Origin: Anaeromyxobacter oryzae
GTDB lineage: Bacteria > Myxococcota > Myxococcia > Myxococcales > Anaeromyxobacteraceae
Length of the DNA: 64,000 bases
Direction of reading: 5' to 3'
NCBI RefSeq assembly: GCF_023169945.1
Contig: NZ_AP025591.1
Coordinates: 682,001 to 746,000 of the forward strand
This document shows positions 6,150 through 11,446 of this stretch, piece by piece (positions within the stretch are counted from its first letter, which is position 1; the number at the start of each line of letters is the position of its first letter). The notes beneath the pieces were generated by a model. That model had not been told where the DNA came from, did no database searches, and worked only from the letters and a program-made list of their open reading frames with translations. The position numbers were made by a program, and so were the translations under genes.

Positions 6150-6240
6150 CGTCTCTTCCCGGCGGGCCCGCGACCCCGCATGACCTGCGCCGCACGTTCG
6201 CCTCCCTCTGCGAAGCCGCGCCCGAGGATGGCGGGCTCGG
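6150..6240 (+). pseudogene. tyrosine recombinase (integrase) C-terminal remnant
   Basis: The plus-strand frame reads GPATPHDLRRTFASLCEAA around 6162-6218. HDLRRTFASL is the Box II H-x-x-R region of phage-type tyrosine recombinases. No other recombinase motif is recognisable: upstream lies the signal-peptide end of the DUF4932 gene, and downstream the expected LGH and catalytic Tyr region is absent. This is a fragment, not a working integrase. It sits at the left end of the accessory region and is probably what remains of the element that brought it in. Confidence 0.6.
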
Positions 6241-6528
6241 TCTCGACGAGCGGTGGTCGAGAGCTGCCCGTCCCACACGCTGGGCAGCAGCAAGATCCAG
6301 GCTTGGCGGCTCGCGGATGCCACTCCCCTTTACGCAAGGCACGCGGAACGTACGTGAGGCTCAGCGGAGCGGGGGACTGGACGACGAGGGTCGACGCCGC
6401 GGCAGCAGGTTGAGACCGCGCCGCGCGGCTGGCTCAGGACGATCGATTCTGGTCACCAGTGCCTGACGAGATCCGGCCGGTCAGGAGGCCACCGTATGCG
6501 ATGATGCCGTCCTGCTCGGGAGGGGACG
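6241..6528. other. intergenic junction of the accessory island
   Basis: About 290 bp without a supported gene. It holds the 7-bp inverted repeat and the motif TCCCCTTTACGCAAGG (6324-6339), which recurs as TCCCCTTTCTGCAAGG at 9044-9059. Open frames here do not look like protein. Confidence 0.4.
6263..6288. repeat. inverted repeat in the left junction of the island
   Basis: GCTGCCC and GGGCAGC are separated by 12 nt, making a perfect 7-bp stem just after the integrase remnant. No T-run follows. It could be a terminator remnant or a recombination-site arm. Confidence 0.35.
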
Positions 6529-7008
6529 ATGGCATCATGCAGGGGAAATCGTGGGCGTGGCGTCACCAGCGCGGTTCTCGCCGTAGCCGTCGGTGGCGTG
6601 CTGCTTGCGACCGCTTGCGGTGGCGGCAGCTCGGCTCCGCACGTCACCGTCCGCTGGGACCGCACGACTCTGACGTTGCCGGCCGCGGACGGGTGCGCAT
6701 GCGCGTTCCTTGAGTACCTCAGGGATGGCTCGGTCGACGGGACGGACGGGTTGACGTGGTCCGTCCTGGGTGACACGGCGGGCGCGCCGACGGTTAACGC
6801 GAACCTCCCTCCGTTGTCGTCTGGTGGCATCGTCTGTGCGAACGACCTTCCGCCGCTTATGGACGGAGCGTTCATGGGCTGGGCGCACGTGGGCGGCTCC
6901 GGCCCCGCCGGGACTTGGCAGGTCCGCGCGAACGTGTTCGAGTGGCTCGGGGACACGGACAGTATGAGGGTGCTTGCGAGCGCGGATCTCGAGGTCGTCG
7001 TCCCCTGA
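6529..7008 (+). CDS. putative small lipoprotein, unknown function
   Basis: 159 aa, not recognised. A basic N-terminus, a hydrophobic stretch (VLAVAVGGVLL) and a lipobox (LLATAC, Cys about residue 30) followed by GGGSS predict a lipoprotein. The mature part has Cys residues in DGCACAFLEYL and GIVCANDL that may pair. The ATG has a purine-rich GGGAGGGGAC just upstream. It is the first of three small exported or membrane proteins in the island, all on the same strand, each followed by a block of ~70-bp repeats. Codon use looks less extreme in GC than the flanking core genes. Confidence 0.65.
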   Translation: MASCRGNRGRGVTSAVLAVAVGGVLLATACGGGSSAPHVTVRWDRTTLTLPAADGCACAFLEYLRDGSVDGTDGLTWSVLGDTAGAPTVNANLPPLSSGGIVCANDLPPLMDGAFMGWAHVGGSGPAGTWQVRANVFEWLGDTDSMRVLASADLEVVVP

Positions 7009-7057: not shown

Positions 7058-7352
7058 CGGCCGGCTTTCTCGCGCGCGGATCCCGTCGGCCAGTTCTTCT
7101 ACTCCGGCATCGGCGGGTACGCCGGGCCCCCGGGCCTTAGCCGCGATGTGACTCCTGGGCCGGTGTACCTGCGAGCCCGTCGACGGAAGCACAGGGCGTC
7201 CCCCCGGCCTGAACGCCCGCGGGTCCCATCCGACAGTTCTTCTTGTCGGTCGTCGCCGGGCATGGGGACACCCCCCGCTCTTTCGCGCGATGTGACTCCT
7301 GGGCCGGTGTACCTGCGAGCCCGTCGCTGGGCTGGAACCGCGCGCCGCGCGG
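7058..7352. repeat. degenerate ~70-bp tandem repeat, block 1 (four units)
   Basis: Four head-to-tail units begin near 7064, 7134, 7207 and 7277 (period 70-73 bp). Two subtypes alternate. Type I has GTCCCATCCGACAGTTCTTC or a variant (7064, 7207). Type II has GTGTACCTGCGAGCCCGTCG (7134, 7277). CCGACA/TGTCGG at 7230-7249 forms a hairpin, and GGGGACACCCC follows. Related units occur at 8001-8192, 8840-8975 and 9218-9280. Confidence 0.7.
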
Positions 7353-7475
7353 CACGTAGGAAGAACACTTCCTGACCGACCCCGGGTGCACCGTGCAGGG
7401 CGCGTGGATCAGCACTCCTCCCGACGACCAACATTTCTGACCGGTCGGGCGAGCGGGGCCGGTAGAGTTCTGCGC

Positions 7476-7991
7476 ATGCAACTCCTCGTCGCCGTGCATC
7501 GCGAGCAGGGGCGGGTGAGCGTCGTGCTGCGCCCCTACCGGCGGTGGGGCATGGTGTGGGTGTTTCTCGCGGTCGTCGTCGTAACCGTAGCGCTTCGATC
7601 CGGTGTCCGCGTCCCAGAATTCGTCGGGGCTGGCCTGCTCGGGATCGCCGCGTGTGCCACCTATGGCGCCGCCCTCGCCACCGCGTGGTACCTCGTCGGG
7701 CGCGAGGTCGTCACAGCAACGCCGGCGTCGATCACCATCGAGCACTTCATCATCCGGCGCCGCCGCACGGAGCAGTACTCGGCGGGAAAGGTGATGAACC
7801 TCCGCGCGCAGGCCGCTGGGCGAGTCATGCGCCGGGGCCGCCTGGTGCGTGCCTTAGCGGCGTTGGCGTTCGAGCATGACGGCGAGACGGTGCGTTTTGC
7901 CGTCGGTCTGGCTGGGGCGGAAGCTGACGCCGTGCTTGCAGATCTCCAGAGCGGCCTGATGACGCCGGGGGGATCAGCGGCGCGCGTGTGA
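7476..7991 (+). CDS. small membrane protein with PH-like domain, unknown function
   Basis: 171 aa. After ~25 residues there are two membrane spans, about 26-43 (MVWVFLAVVVVTVALR) and 50-70 (GLLGIAACATYGAALATAWY). A cytoplasmic part begins VTATPASITIEHFIIRRRR. This arrangement, two helices then a beta-rich segment starting with a short basic strand, resembles bacterial PH-like membrane proteins, but the match is weak. The ATG at 7476 is chosen because upstream codons run into intergenic repeat DNA and because TAGAGT (7463-7468) lies 7 nt before it, a possible -10 of a near-leaderless mRNA. It lies between repeat blocks 1 and 2. Confidence 0.6.
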   Translation: MQLLVAVHREQGRVSVVLRPYRRWGMVWVFLAVVVVTVALRSGVRVPEFVGAGLLGIAACATYGAALATAWYLVGREVVTATPASITIEHFIIRRRRTEQYSAGKVMNLRAQAAGRVMRRGRLVRALAALAFEHDGETVRFAVGLAGAEADAVLADLQSGLMTPGGSAARV

Positions 7992-8000
7992 GGGGCCCCC

Positions 8001-8192
8001 GGCCTTTTCTCGCGGGGCCCACCTCAACGGTGATCCTCGCCGCCCGTCGCCGGGATGGCGGGAGCCCCGGCCTGATTGCGCGCGGGTCCCATCCGACAGT
8101 TCTTCTTCTGGGTCATCGCCGGGCTAAGGGGACACCCCCGCCTTTCGCCGCGTGGGTCCCATTTGGCGGTGTACCTGCGAGCCCGTCGCCGG
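8001..8192. repeat. degenerate ~70-bp tandem repeat, block 2 (three units)
   Basis: Units begin at about 8001, 8070 and 8140. The first (type III) has GGGGCCCACCTCAACGGT, the second is type I with CATCCGACAGTTCTTCTT, and the third ends in type II GTGTACCTGCGAGCCCGTCG. The third unit shares GTGGGTCCCAT with type I, showing that the subtypes are related. Each unit ends near GTCGCCGG. Confidence 0.7.
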
Positions 8193-8242
8193 TTGTGACT
8201 CGTCGGCATTGCGGCTACCCTGCGCGCCGAGCGGAGGGGAAT

Positions 8243-8803
8243 ATGCAGGTCGTGCAGGGGATGGCGCGCGTTCTTGCCGGGCTGGCGGTCTGCGCGGTGC
8301 TCGTGGCGGGCTCGGCGCGGGGCTCGGATGAGGCCAAGCCAGTCAACACCGAGGTATCGCTACGCGCATTTCTTCGCGGCTGGGCCGCCGAGGCCGGCGA
8401 CGCTGAAGATCCGAGCACTCAATATACCCATGCTTGGGTAAACCTCCGCGACAACGGCTCCCAGCAGGTCGTGGTCTACATTGAGGGGCCAAGGTGGTGC
8501 GGCTCCGGCGGATGCGTCCTGCTTGTGCTGGAGCCCCATGCGGAGAGCTTTCGAATCGTCGGTTACAGCACGATCACGTGGCCGCCCATCCGGATTCTGC
8601 GGCGGGTGACGAACGGCTGGCACGACATCGGCGTGCGGGTCGCGGGAGGTGGGATCCACCCGGCGCATGACGCGGGCCTTCCGTTCAACGGGAAGAAGTA
8701 CCCGCTCAACCCGTCCGAGCCGCCCGCGCGCAACGCGACGGGCGAGAGCGTGATCTCGACGGCAATCACCGGGGAGGAGCCCGGTCAGCCGCTCTGGAAG
8801 TAG
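8243..8803 (+). CDS. secreted protein with WCGSGGC motif, unknown function
   Basis: 186 aa. The start has a good ribosome-binding site (GGAGGGGAAT then ATG) and a signal peptide (ARVLAGLAVCAVLVAGSARG). The mature protein contains RWCGSGGCVLLVLEP and, later, GWHDIGVRV. That pairing is seen in a widespread family of uncharacterised exported proteins of gamma- and other proteobacteria; the two Cys of WCGSGGC may form a disulfide. The C-terminal NGKKYPLNPSEPPA is also typical of those proteins. Function is unknown. It is the third small exported or membrane gene in the island, between repeat blocks 2 and 3. Confidence 0.7.
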   Translation: MQVVQGMARVLAGLAVCAVLVAGSARGSDEAKPVNTEVSLRAFLRGWAAEAGDAEDPSTQYTHAWVNLRDNGSQQVVVYIEGPRWCGSGGCVLLVLEPHAESFRIVGYSTITWPPIRILRRVTNGWHDIGVRVAGGGIHPAHDAGLPFNGKKYPLNPSEPPARNATGESVISTAITGEEPGQPLWK

Positions 8804-8839
8804 GCCTCTGATCCGTTCTCGGCTAGGCGTAGGTCGGCT

Positions 8840-8975
8840 CCCGGCCTGATCGCGCGCGGGTCCCCATCCGCCAGTTCTTCTTGTTGGTCGTAGCCGGACA
8901 CGGCGCCCCCCCGGCGCTTCGCCGCGATGAGACTCCTGGATGGTGACCTGCGAGCCCGTCGCCGGGAAGGCGGGA
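8840..8975. repeat. degenerate ~70-bp tandem repeat, block 3 (two units)
   Basis: A type I unit from about 8844 (GCGCGCGGGTCCCCATCCGC, then CAGTTCTTCTTG) is followed by a type II unit from 8916 (GATGAGACTCCTGG, then ACCTGCGAGCCCGTCGCCGG). The block lies directly after the WCGSGGC gene. Confidence 0.65.
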
Positions 8976-9335
8976 ACCCTCGCATTAATGCAAGGCAGCC
9001 AGGCTCATGGGATCGCGCGGGGTTGGCTCTTCGCCGCAGGCAGTCCCCTTTCTGCAAGGTCGCCGCGCGCCTGGCCCGTCGGCACGTGAATGCTCCGCAC
9101 GGCCGGCGTTGCGCGTATCGAGCCCGGTCTCTTCCTGCGCTCGCGCAAGCGCCCGCGCTCCGTCAACGGAGCGGCGCTGGACGGCGCTCACGCCCAACGC
9201 TCTGGCGGCGATCCCCCCCCCGGGTGTTGATCGCGAAGGGGCCCACCTGACGGTTGTCCTTTGACACCGTCGCCGGGCGCTGCCCCGCGTCTCCGCGCTC
9301 TGGGCACGGCGTCACGCGTCGCATATAACGCGGCA
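8976..9335. other. intergenic, decayed island DNA with one more repeat unit
   Basis: No supported gene. It contains the 16-bp motif TCCCCTTTCTGCAAGG (9044-9059, 14/16 match to 6324-6339) and a perfect 8-bp stem CGCTCCGT/ACGGAGCG with a 2-nt loop (9156-9173). A single type III repeat unit lies at about 9218-9280 (GGGGCCCACCTGACGGTTGT, then GTCGCCGGG). A TTGACA at 9261 has no matching -10 at the right distance. Confidence 0.5.
9324..9329 (+). promoter_or_regulatory. -10 box of the ATPase operon, near-leaderless
   Basis: TATAAC is followed by 6 nt and the ATG at 9336. No convincing -35 or Shine-Dalgarno is present, so a leaderless mRNA is likely if this box is used. Confidence 0.4.
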
Positions 9336-10931
9336 ATGCACTTGAACACCGCGTTCTTGAAGCTCCCGCTTCGCGCGGAGGGCGAGGACCCGTCGCTGTT
9401 GGTCAAGACGTTCGTCGATGTCGCGCACCTCTTCACGGTGCTGTCGAACGACGACCACCAGGTTCTGTACGGGCGGCGAGGCACCGGCAAGACGCACGCG
9501 CTCAAGTACCTGGTCGAATATACGCGTTCGCGTCGGCAGGTCTCGCTGTACGTGGACATGCGCACGATCGGCTCGTCAGGCGGGCTCTACTCGGACGACA
9601 CAGCGCCGCTCTCCGAGCGCGCGACTCGTCTGCTGATGGACACGCTACTTGCGATCCACGATCAGCTCGCCACCTTCGCGCTCGGCGACTCCGACCTCGC
9701 CCAGGCCGCGCAGCCAGAGCTTCTGCCGCGGCTGGACGCCCTCGCCGAGGTGGCGACCGAGGTCCGCGTCGCGGGCACCGTTGAGCAGCACGTGGCTGCG
9801 AGCGAGTCTGCGTCAGAGAAGGCCAGCGGCAGCGCGTCGCTCGACACGACCGGCAAGCTAACAATGGCCGCCGGGACCGACGTTAGCCAAGCCGCGAGCG
9901 TCGAGCGTCGGCGGACGGAGAAGGGCCAGGAGGTACACCGGGTTCACTTTGGCTCTGCATCGAAACGGCTCGCCGATGTCGTTGCAGCACTCCCGGGCGC
10001 GCGGCTCTGGCTGATGCTCGACGAGTGGAGCGTCATTCCCCGAGACCTTCAGCCGTACCTCGCGGACTTCCTGCGGAGGTGCATGCTGCCCGTCAAGGGG
10101 ATGACCGTGAAGATCGGTGCCATCGAGCAGCGGAGTTGGTTCCGCCTGGGCACCAACACCGGTGACTACGTCGGGCTCGAATTGGGGGCCGACATCTCGG
10201 CGAACCTCGACCTTGACGACTTCATGGTCTTCAACAACGACCCCGAGCGCGCGAAGGCCTTCCTCCGGGACCTTCTCTTCCGGCACGTGCGCGCGATCTA
10301 CGCGAGCGAGGGGAATGAGGCGCGGGCACCGAGGACGGCTGACGAGCTGGTCTCCCTCGCCTTCACTCAGGTGAATGCGTTCGCCGAGTACGTCCGTGCG
10401 TCCGAAGGCGTGCCCCGGGATGCGGTCAACATCCTCGGGCTCGCCGCCCAGAAGGCGTTCGAGGAGAAGATCTCGGTCCAGCACGTACGCTCGGCAGCCC
10501 GCGCTTGGTACCAGCGCGACAAGCTTCGGGCCGTGAACGCCAACGAGTCCGCCGCCGACCTGCTCACGTGGATCATCTCGGAGGTGATCGGCAACCGACA
10601 CGCCCGCGCGTTCCTGCTGGAGCAGGGGAGAGATCACCAGCTGATCGGCACCCTCTACGATGCGCGGGTGCTCCACGTGCTCAAGCGCGGCGTTCACGGG
10701 GGCGACATCGCGGGCGTCCGCTTCAATGTGTACGCGCTCGACTACGGCTGCTACGTGGACCTTGCGACCACGTCGAACGCGCCGCGTGGGCTGTTCGCGG
10801 TGCTCGAAGAGGACGGGACGGAGCGTTTCGTTGAGGTTCCGCAAGACGACTATCGCTCGATCCGGCGCGCGATCCTCGATCTCGCGGCGTTCGAGCGGTA
10901 CCTGGGCGAGAGGACGCGGGGCGGAAGATGA
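9336..10931 (+). CDS. P-loop AAA (ORC-CDC6-like) ATPase of a two-gene accessory operon
   Basis: 531 aa. Walker A is GRRGTGKT (residues 46-53) and Walker B is LWLMLDEWS (about 224-232). A sensor-like VKIGAIEQRSW follows at 258-268. Between the Walker motifs is an Ala/Ser/Thr-rich insert (about 150-190: ASESASEKASGSASLD). The C-terminal third (from about 405) looks like a winged-helix region with VLHVLKRG. This layout fits the ORC-CDC6/STAND-like ATPases that occur as stand-alone or defence-associated genes rather than replication initiators. The next gene overlaps the stop by 4 nt (ATGA), so the two are translationally coupled. Island context suggests a defence or mobile-element role; this is inference. 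Confidence 0.8.
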   Translation: MHLNTAFLKLPLRAEGEDPSLLVKTFVDVAHLFTVLSNDDHQVLYGRRGTGKTHALKYLVEYTRSRRQVSLYVDMRTIGSSGGLYSDDTAPLSERATRLLMDTLLAIHDQLATFALGDSDLAQAAQPELLPRLDALAEVATEVRVAGTVEQHVAASESASEKASGSASLDTTGKLTMAAGTDVSQAASVERRRTEKGQEVHRVHFGSASKRLADVVAALPGARLWLMLDEWSVIPRDLQPYLADFLRRCMLPVKGMTVKIGAIEQRSWFRLGTNTGDYVGLELGADISANLDLDDFMVFNNDPERAKAFLRDLLFRHVRAIYASEGNEARAPRTADELVSLAFTQVNAFAEYVRASEGVPRDAVNILGLAAQKAFEEKISVQHVRSAARAWYQRDKLRAVNANESAADLLTWIISEVIGNRHARAFLLEQGRDHQLIGTLYDARVLHVLKRGVHGGDIAGVRFNVYALDYGCYVDLATTSNAPRGLFAVLEEDGTERFVEVPQDDYRSIRRAILDLAAFERYLGERTRGGR

Positions 10932-11446
10932 CGGGCCCGACTCGCACGGACGTTACGCAGCTCCTGCTCCGCTATCGCGAGGCCGCCAGGCACCTCTGGA
11001 ACTGCTTCCTCCGCGAGCCGGAAACCTTCGCCGCCGCGACACTCGCGGGCGACGACGCGCGGGACGATTGGGAAGAGCTGAAGCAGGTCCTCTTCCGGGC
11101 CATCGTGTTGCGGAACACGGGGAGCGCAGATCATGCCGCGGCGCGCCTGCGGTGGCTGACCCCCATCGACTTCCTCCACGTCACCTTGCGCGTGGAGGTG
11201 CCCGCTATGGTCAGCCGCAAGAAGGACCAAGGCAGCTACTGGGACCACCCGGTCGATAGGCTCGACCCTGACGATGACCTGCGGTTCATCGACTTCTACG
11301 ACTTCGACGAGTCACGCCATCGGGACTTCCAGTACTGCCAGGCTGAGATCAGGAACAGCCAGCAGCATCCCGAGGTGATCGGGCACATCGCCCTGGTCGA
11401 GGTCCAGTACGTGAACGTCGTCGTCGAGGATCCAGCATCACCGTGA
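10928..11446 (+). CDS. 172-aa partner protein of the ATPase, unknown function
   Basis: I do not recognise a named family. The N-terminus holds LLLRYREAARHLWNCFL, an amphipathic aromatic/basic helix. The middle has RWLTPIDFLHVTLRVEVP. A very acidic stretch follows (DRLDPDDDLRFIDFYDFDES), then a beta-like end (IALVEVQYVNVVVED). There is no transmembrane segment, signal peptide or known nuclease or toxin motif. The ATG overlaps the ATPase stop, implying coupled expression and probably a complex. It could be an effector or adaptor of the ATPase. Confidence 0.7.
   Translation: MTGPTRTDVTQLLLRYREAARHLWNCFLREPETFAAATLAGDDARDDWEELKQVLFRAIVLRNTGSADHAAARLRWLTPIDFLHVTLRVEVPAMVSRKKDQGSYWDHPVDRLDPDDDLRFIDFYDFDESRHRDFQYCQAEIRNSQQHPEVIGHIALVEVQYVNVVVEDPASP

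Follow-up and report, generated by a model that had tools for sequence, protein, structure and literature searches.

REP/BIME elements, which go together with RAYT transposases, are intergenic repeats located at the 3' ends of genes, and their subtypes alternate in tandem. MITEs are short non-coding repeats that occur in several related genomes. With regard to gene capture, the familiar case in which single genes are strung together by means of a reusable site is the integron, which depends on the integrase IntI and on folded attC sites. Small serine recombinases of the resolvase/invertase type (PF00239) are not known to form cassette arrays. Clusters of attC sites lacking an integrase are termed CALINs (PMC9668308).

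The window, which is the whole analysed stretch of 64,000 nucleotides of the chromosome of the soil bacterium Anaeromyxobacter oryzae, exhibits an array of small genes and short repeat units. The array comprises the following features (window coordinates; positions given in kb are those of the chromosome):

6529-7008, + strand: small gene 1, 159 aa, exported/lipoprotein-like, no curated family, stop codon 52 bp before block 1
7060-7337, + strand: block 1, units A (7060-7123), B (7124-7191), A (7198-7266) and B (7269-7337)
7338-7382, + strand: tail of 45 bp after the last B unit, with the inverted repeat AGGAAG-AACA-CTTCCT
7476-7991, + strand: small gene 2, 171 aa, membrane-type hypothetical protein, stop codon about 2 bp before block 2
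7993-8194, + strand: block 2, units C (7993-8060), A (8063-8128) and A-left/B-right (8132-8194)
8243-8803, + strand: small gene 3, 186 aa, exported hypothetical protein, stop codon 34 bp before block 3
8837-8971, + strand: block 3, units A (8837-8904) and B (8906-8971)
8980-9069, + strand: segment common to the window and the orthologous hotspot of the relative G004, ~90 bp (91 bp), 80%
9214-9280, + strand: block 4, a single C unit

The initial annotation had counted ten related units, grouped by four, three, two and one, and this was borne out between positions 7060 and 9280. The units are non-coding, about 65 bp long, and spaced by about 64-74 bp inside the blocks. Alignment of the units also agrees with the two alternating subtypes and the third subtype that had been reported: A (CCCATCCGACAGTTCTTCTTGTCGGTCGTCGCCGGG) alternates with B (GACTCCTGGNCGGTGNACCTGCGAGCCCGTCGCCGGG), and C (GGGGCCCACCTNGACGG...GTCGCCGGG) opens block 2 and makes up block 4. 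The unit at 8132-8194 is mixed, with an A-like left part and a B-like right part. Such A/B hybrids were considered as proof of a central crossover; this argument was dropped, since the ancestral unit may itself have been of hybrid form. A protein-coding reading of the units was rejected, as B copies exhibit 1-nt indels and base changes in GGTG(T/G/C)ACC, so that no frame is kept. Identity among units is roughly 60-90%, and it is 75-90% in alignments of copies from unlinked loci. The strongest match is that of the whole A-B-A-B block with its 45-bp tail to the block at 5743 kb (80% over 332 bp, E 2.7e-75); the tail is also observed 3' of the B unit at 653 kb. A sequence profile built from 23 units and searched against the whole 6.72-Mb chromosome recovered 24 units, with E values up to about 1e-6 followed by a gap to 0.03. 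The ten units are related beyond chance, as is apparent from the alignment of unlinked copies and from this gap in profile score.

Fourteen of these 24 units, which had been overlooked in the initial annotation, lie outside the ten of the window. The units occupy about eight places, chiefly at 614-691 kb and 5.71-5.74 Mb, and their positions are 614.7, 641.0, 648.8, 652.7, 653.3, 689.1-691.3 (the window), 5453.6 and 5741.1-5743.2 kb. Only the right half of a unit is present at 5712.8 kb, and a degenerate A remnant is found just before the unit at 641 kb. The arrays and their genes have a GC content below that of the neighbouring core. The family is not confined to the window, nor to this genome, since single copies were found in five relatives: full-length copies of C type in four genomes of the same genus (G002, G003, G004 and G007; two identical G004 copies represent a contig overlap and were counted once), and a full-length copy of B type in one genome of another genus of the same family (G010). 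Beyond these same-family copies, an order-wide search of 145 genomes gave only weak and partial matches, and among about 85,000 species genomes there was a single match, short and partial, in Nocardioides. No units were found in phage and plasmid records or in viral contigs, where 13 matches to an 18-base pattern were incomplete and resembled background; a viral, plasmid or phage origin was therefore rejected. Based on this distribution, with single copies in a few relatives and no more than partial matches beyond, the repeat family is probably old, local to one bacterial family and, of the genomes searched, amplified in this one alone. A word-matching search of open-licence papers on Anaeromyxobacter returned no description of such repeats.

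The genes between units encode small products, often membrane or exported proteins, with almost no family match; remote homologues of small gene 3 are found on plasmids of Sphingomonas, Cetobacterium and Vibrio. The gene-repeat layout first noticed in the window also applies to the 19 blocks of this genome and its relatives. A same-strand ORF of at least 80 codons, ending between 15 bp inside the block and 60 bp before it, is observed at 12 of the 19 blocks, against 3 expected from the rate at random places in the same loci (0.158; P ~4e-6), and a codon-usage filter leaves six of the 19 against a rate of 0.042 (P 1e-4), these P values being indicative only, because GC-rich DNA makes the ORF test permissive and the list of blocks was fixed after inspection. 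The mirrored control on the opposite strand was at chance (4/19). In four cases the stop codon is 1-2 bp from the unit, namely small gene 2 of the window and the genes encoding products of 109 aa (653 kb), 236 aa (5741 kb) and 155 aa (5743 kb). There are exceptions: no same-strand gene ends convincingly close upstream of the units at 614.7, 5453.6 and 691.2 kb, and at 5742 kb an inverted gene lies between the C unit and the tail.

As in integron arrays and CALINs, small orphan genes are thus followed by a 60-70-bp site by the stop codon, in one orientation. Unlike the sites of integron arrays, the units have no attC core, no conserved fold and no IntI above the cut-off, and they are often in tandem. 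We considered whether they could be a divergent integron of the CALIN type, whose attC sites would be recombined by IntI as folded single strands. This would account for the gene-site anatomy, the site length and the small genes without family, but the RYYYAAC...GTTRRRY pair is present in none of the 24 units, and no integrase of the genome reaches the cut-off (best TIGR02249 match 85.7 bits, cut-off 265). The missing IntI alone is not decisive, since CALINs lack an integrase by definition. Given the absence of an attC core and of a conserved fold as well, integron membership was rejected, and we regard a divergent integron as very improbable.

With regard to the fold, the two stems reported in the initial annotation are confined to one or two copies. 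The CCGACA...TGTCGG stem is perfect in one of the ten units (7231-7250), and the second, GGGGACACCCC, corresponds to the spacer leading into the C-run of the next unit. Single units fold no better than shuffled sequence, the fold of A-B dimers is not significant, and RNAalifold returned no pairs for 23 units. The CCGACA/TGTCGG helix exhibits 33% paired cells and no covariation across these copies, and the outer CCCGG/CCGGG helix with the inner GACGG/CCGTC helix exhibits zero double changes. No significant dyad was found in the A, B and C consensus sequences, and no match to Rfam was obtained at the gathering threshold or at E up to 1. The stem-based reading was therefore abandoned. The units do resemble REP/BIME elements in being intergenic, in lying at gene 3' ends and in the tandem alternation of their subtypes. 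In contrast to these elements, they have no conserved palindrome, are few and are bound to islands. Membership was rejected, as a consensus without dyad or fold provides no palindromic core. RAYT-like genes, a family common across these genomes, are far from the units in this genome, and one is located about 1 kb from a unit of G003.

The ends of the units bear on another possibility raised in the initial annotation, that of a MITE, which would here be a non-autonomous transposon of about 62 bp inserting beside genes. Like MITEs, the units are short non-coding repeats found in several related genomes, there as single copies, and their sharp-looking ends (C-run ... CCGGG) and unrelated flanks could be explained in this way. 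Nevertheless, no target-site duplication is observed, the words shared between flanks being no longer than those of re-paired flanks (P 0.12). The terminal inversion spans at most 5 bp (CCCGG/CCGGG), with 77% of cells paired and neither covariation nor compensatory change. Tandem copies in head-to-tail orientation with short spacers would be unusual for a MITE, and homology often differs on both sides of a unit. A MITE origin is thus quite unlikely.

Comparison between genomes gives information on how the genes are joined. The locus of the window has anchors at 681.6 and 693.7 kb; the stretch between them is variable, and relatives hold about 2-9 kb of other genes there. The same hotspot of G004 contains a lipoprotein gene, and the homologue of this gene in A. 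oryzae is at 5453.7 kb (85% identical, including the left part of a unit). The segment of about 90 bp at 8980-9069 follows, in G004, a truncated unit beside the lipoprotein gene and, in the window, a B unit and a different gene. Homology thus switches at a unit in both of the cross-species comparisons available. Within the genome, the neighbouring genes of the A-B-A-B-tail block at 689 kb differ from those at 5743 kb, and the single B-tail block at 653 kb has yet other genes on its two sides. These comparisons show the units as junctions between differing genes. An empty-site comparison at 614.7 kb and at C110 of G003 yielded no clean empty site, the synteny being broken in an unmatched stretch.

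The recombinase remains beside the units are of serine type, unlike those of integrons. Only two loci of this genome carry the Resolvase domain PF00239; each of them is broken and lies 0.6-0.7 kb (<700 bp) upstream of a unit block on the same strand. About 0.25% of the chromosome lies that near a unit, a figure to be read with the facts that the distance was picked after looking, that the loci are few, and that islands collect both units and mobile genes anyway. At 5742284, a C-terminal recombinase fragment abuts the 3' end of the C unit. Among the relatives, the sole resolvase of G007 is 0.8 kb from its sole unit, a resolvase fragment of G003 is 1.65 kb from a unit (a second unit has none near), one of the five resolvases of G002 is at 2.9 kb from a unit, and the unit of G004 has none near. 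The broken copies are beside unit blocks, and the units themselves exhibit no res-like dyads.

Several further observations concern these recombinases. Seven fragments of one serine-recombinase family break recurrently between DRLHRSMxGAI and LDTSGPVRP, and a 35-bp piece of the recombinase gene is isolated at 5715 kb and in G004. The loci concerned are at 654.16, 5715.1, 5742.3 and 5744.1 kb in this genome (G000) and on L080, L083, L111 and L112. In G007, near-identical copies of a 136-bp tandem repeat (L081:2434-2627 and L081:12072-12507), about 9.5 kb apart, bracket the unit and an intact resolvase.

Our tentatively preferred explanation, for which we claim somewhat less than an even chance, is an integron-like gene-cassette array, now decayed, in which the units served as non-canonical junction sequences. 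Each cassette would consist of a small gene and at least one unit of about 65 bp just after its stop codon, and the cassettes would all point in one direction within genomic islands. Recombination at the units would have swapped genes between islands; we infer that it was site-specific and performed by a small serine recombinase of the resolvase/invertase type. The observations that support this explanation are the polar gene-unit order, the restriction to a few islands, the homology switches at units and the broken serine recombinases nearby. The cassette-like reading of the initial annotation stands to this extent. The system looks inactive in this genome, because the units are only about 60-90% identical and both recombinase loci are broken. 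Against a cassette array, there is no intact recombinase in this genome, no movement was seen, and the units do not have the dyad expected of many recombinase sites.

A passive repeat is a close rival, to which we give only slightly less weight. The units would be a dispersed intergenic element located where genes end, such as a termination or processing element, that spread in the islands and was shuffled there passively as its copies underwent homologous recombination. The polar placement after stop codons and the tandem amplification and dispersal of the same module are consistent with it, and homologous recombination would also produce the switches, no dedicated recombinase having been demonstrated. 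However, such an element does not predict the nearness of broken resolvases, exhibits here neither a conserved fold nor an Rfam match, and is present in 24 island-bound copies only rather than chromosome-wide.

A more specific form of the cassette explanation appears unlikely to us: a non-integron system in which a resolvase/invertase-type serine recombinase captured single genes, and of which fossil arrays are left here. Capture would have taken place at double-stranded, non-palindromic sites of about 65 bp after each stop codon. Such a serine-recombinase cassette system would be new. If the units are a second, unrelated family of sites with the same gene-site anatomy, cassette capture would seem to have arisen repeatedly in evolution. 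A passive repeat, too, is a useful tag for the entry points of foreign single genes, since it labels the 3' ends of genes in islands of a single bacterial family.

With regard to the island setting, pieces of tyrosine integrase genes are found near some units, and a tyrosine integrase is located near 5.744 Mb. A 165-bp segment, whose beginning resembles a tRNA T-arm (GGGAYTCGAACCC) and whose end resembles the 3' terminus of a gene for a tyrosine integrase, is present at 5711.9 and 5740.3 kb in this genome and at L080:9011-9175 and L082:8525-8690; in three genomes, units are no further than about 1.4 kb away. These segments are probably island attachment remnants. Together, the integrase pieces and the T-arm-like segment suggest, from sequence resemblance, that the units lie in ordinary tRNA-linked islands. 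Just upstream of the array, the translation of window positions 6180-6260 (TPHDLRRTFASLCEAAPE) resembles, by eye, the C-terminal motif of tyrosine recombinases. Right after block 4, positions 9336-10931 encode a 531-aa P-loop ATPase, ORC-CDC6-like (PF24389), with a match to the NCBIfam Sll1717 family below cut-off and a weak PADLOC match to mad8. It is possibly a defence gene, with a putative 172-aa partner at 10928-11446.
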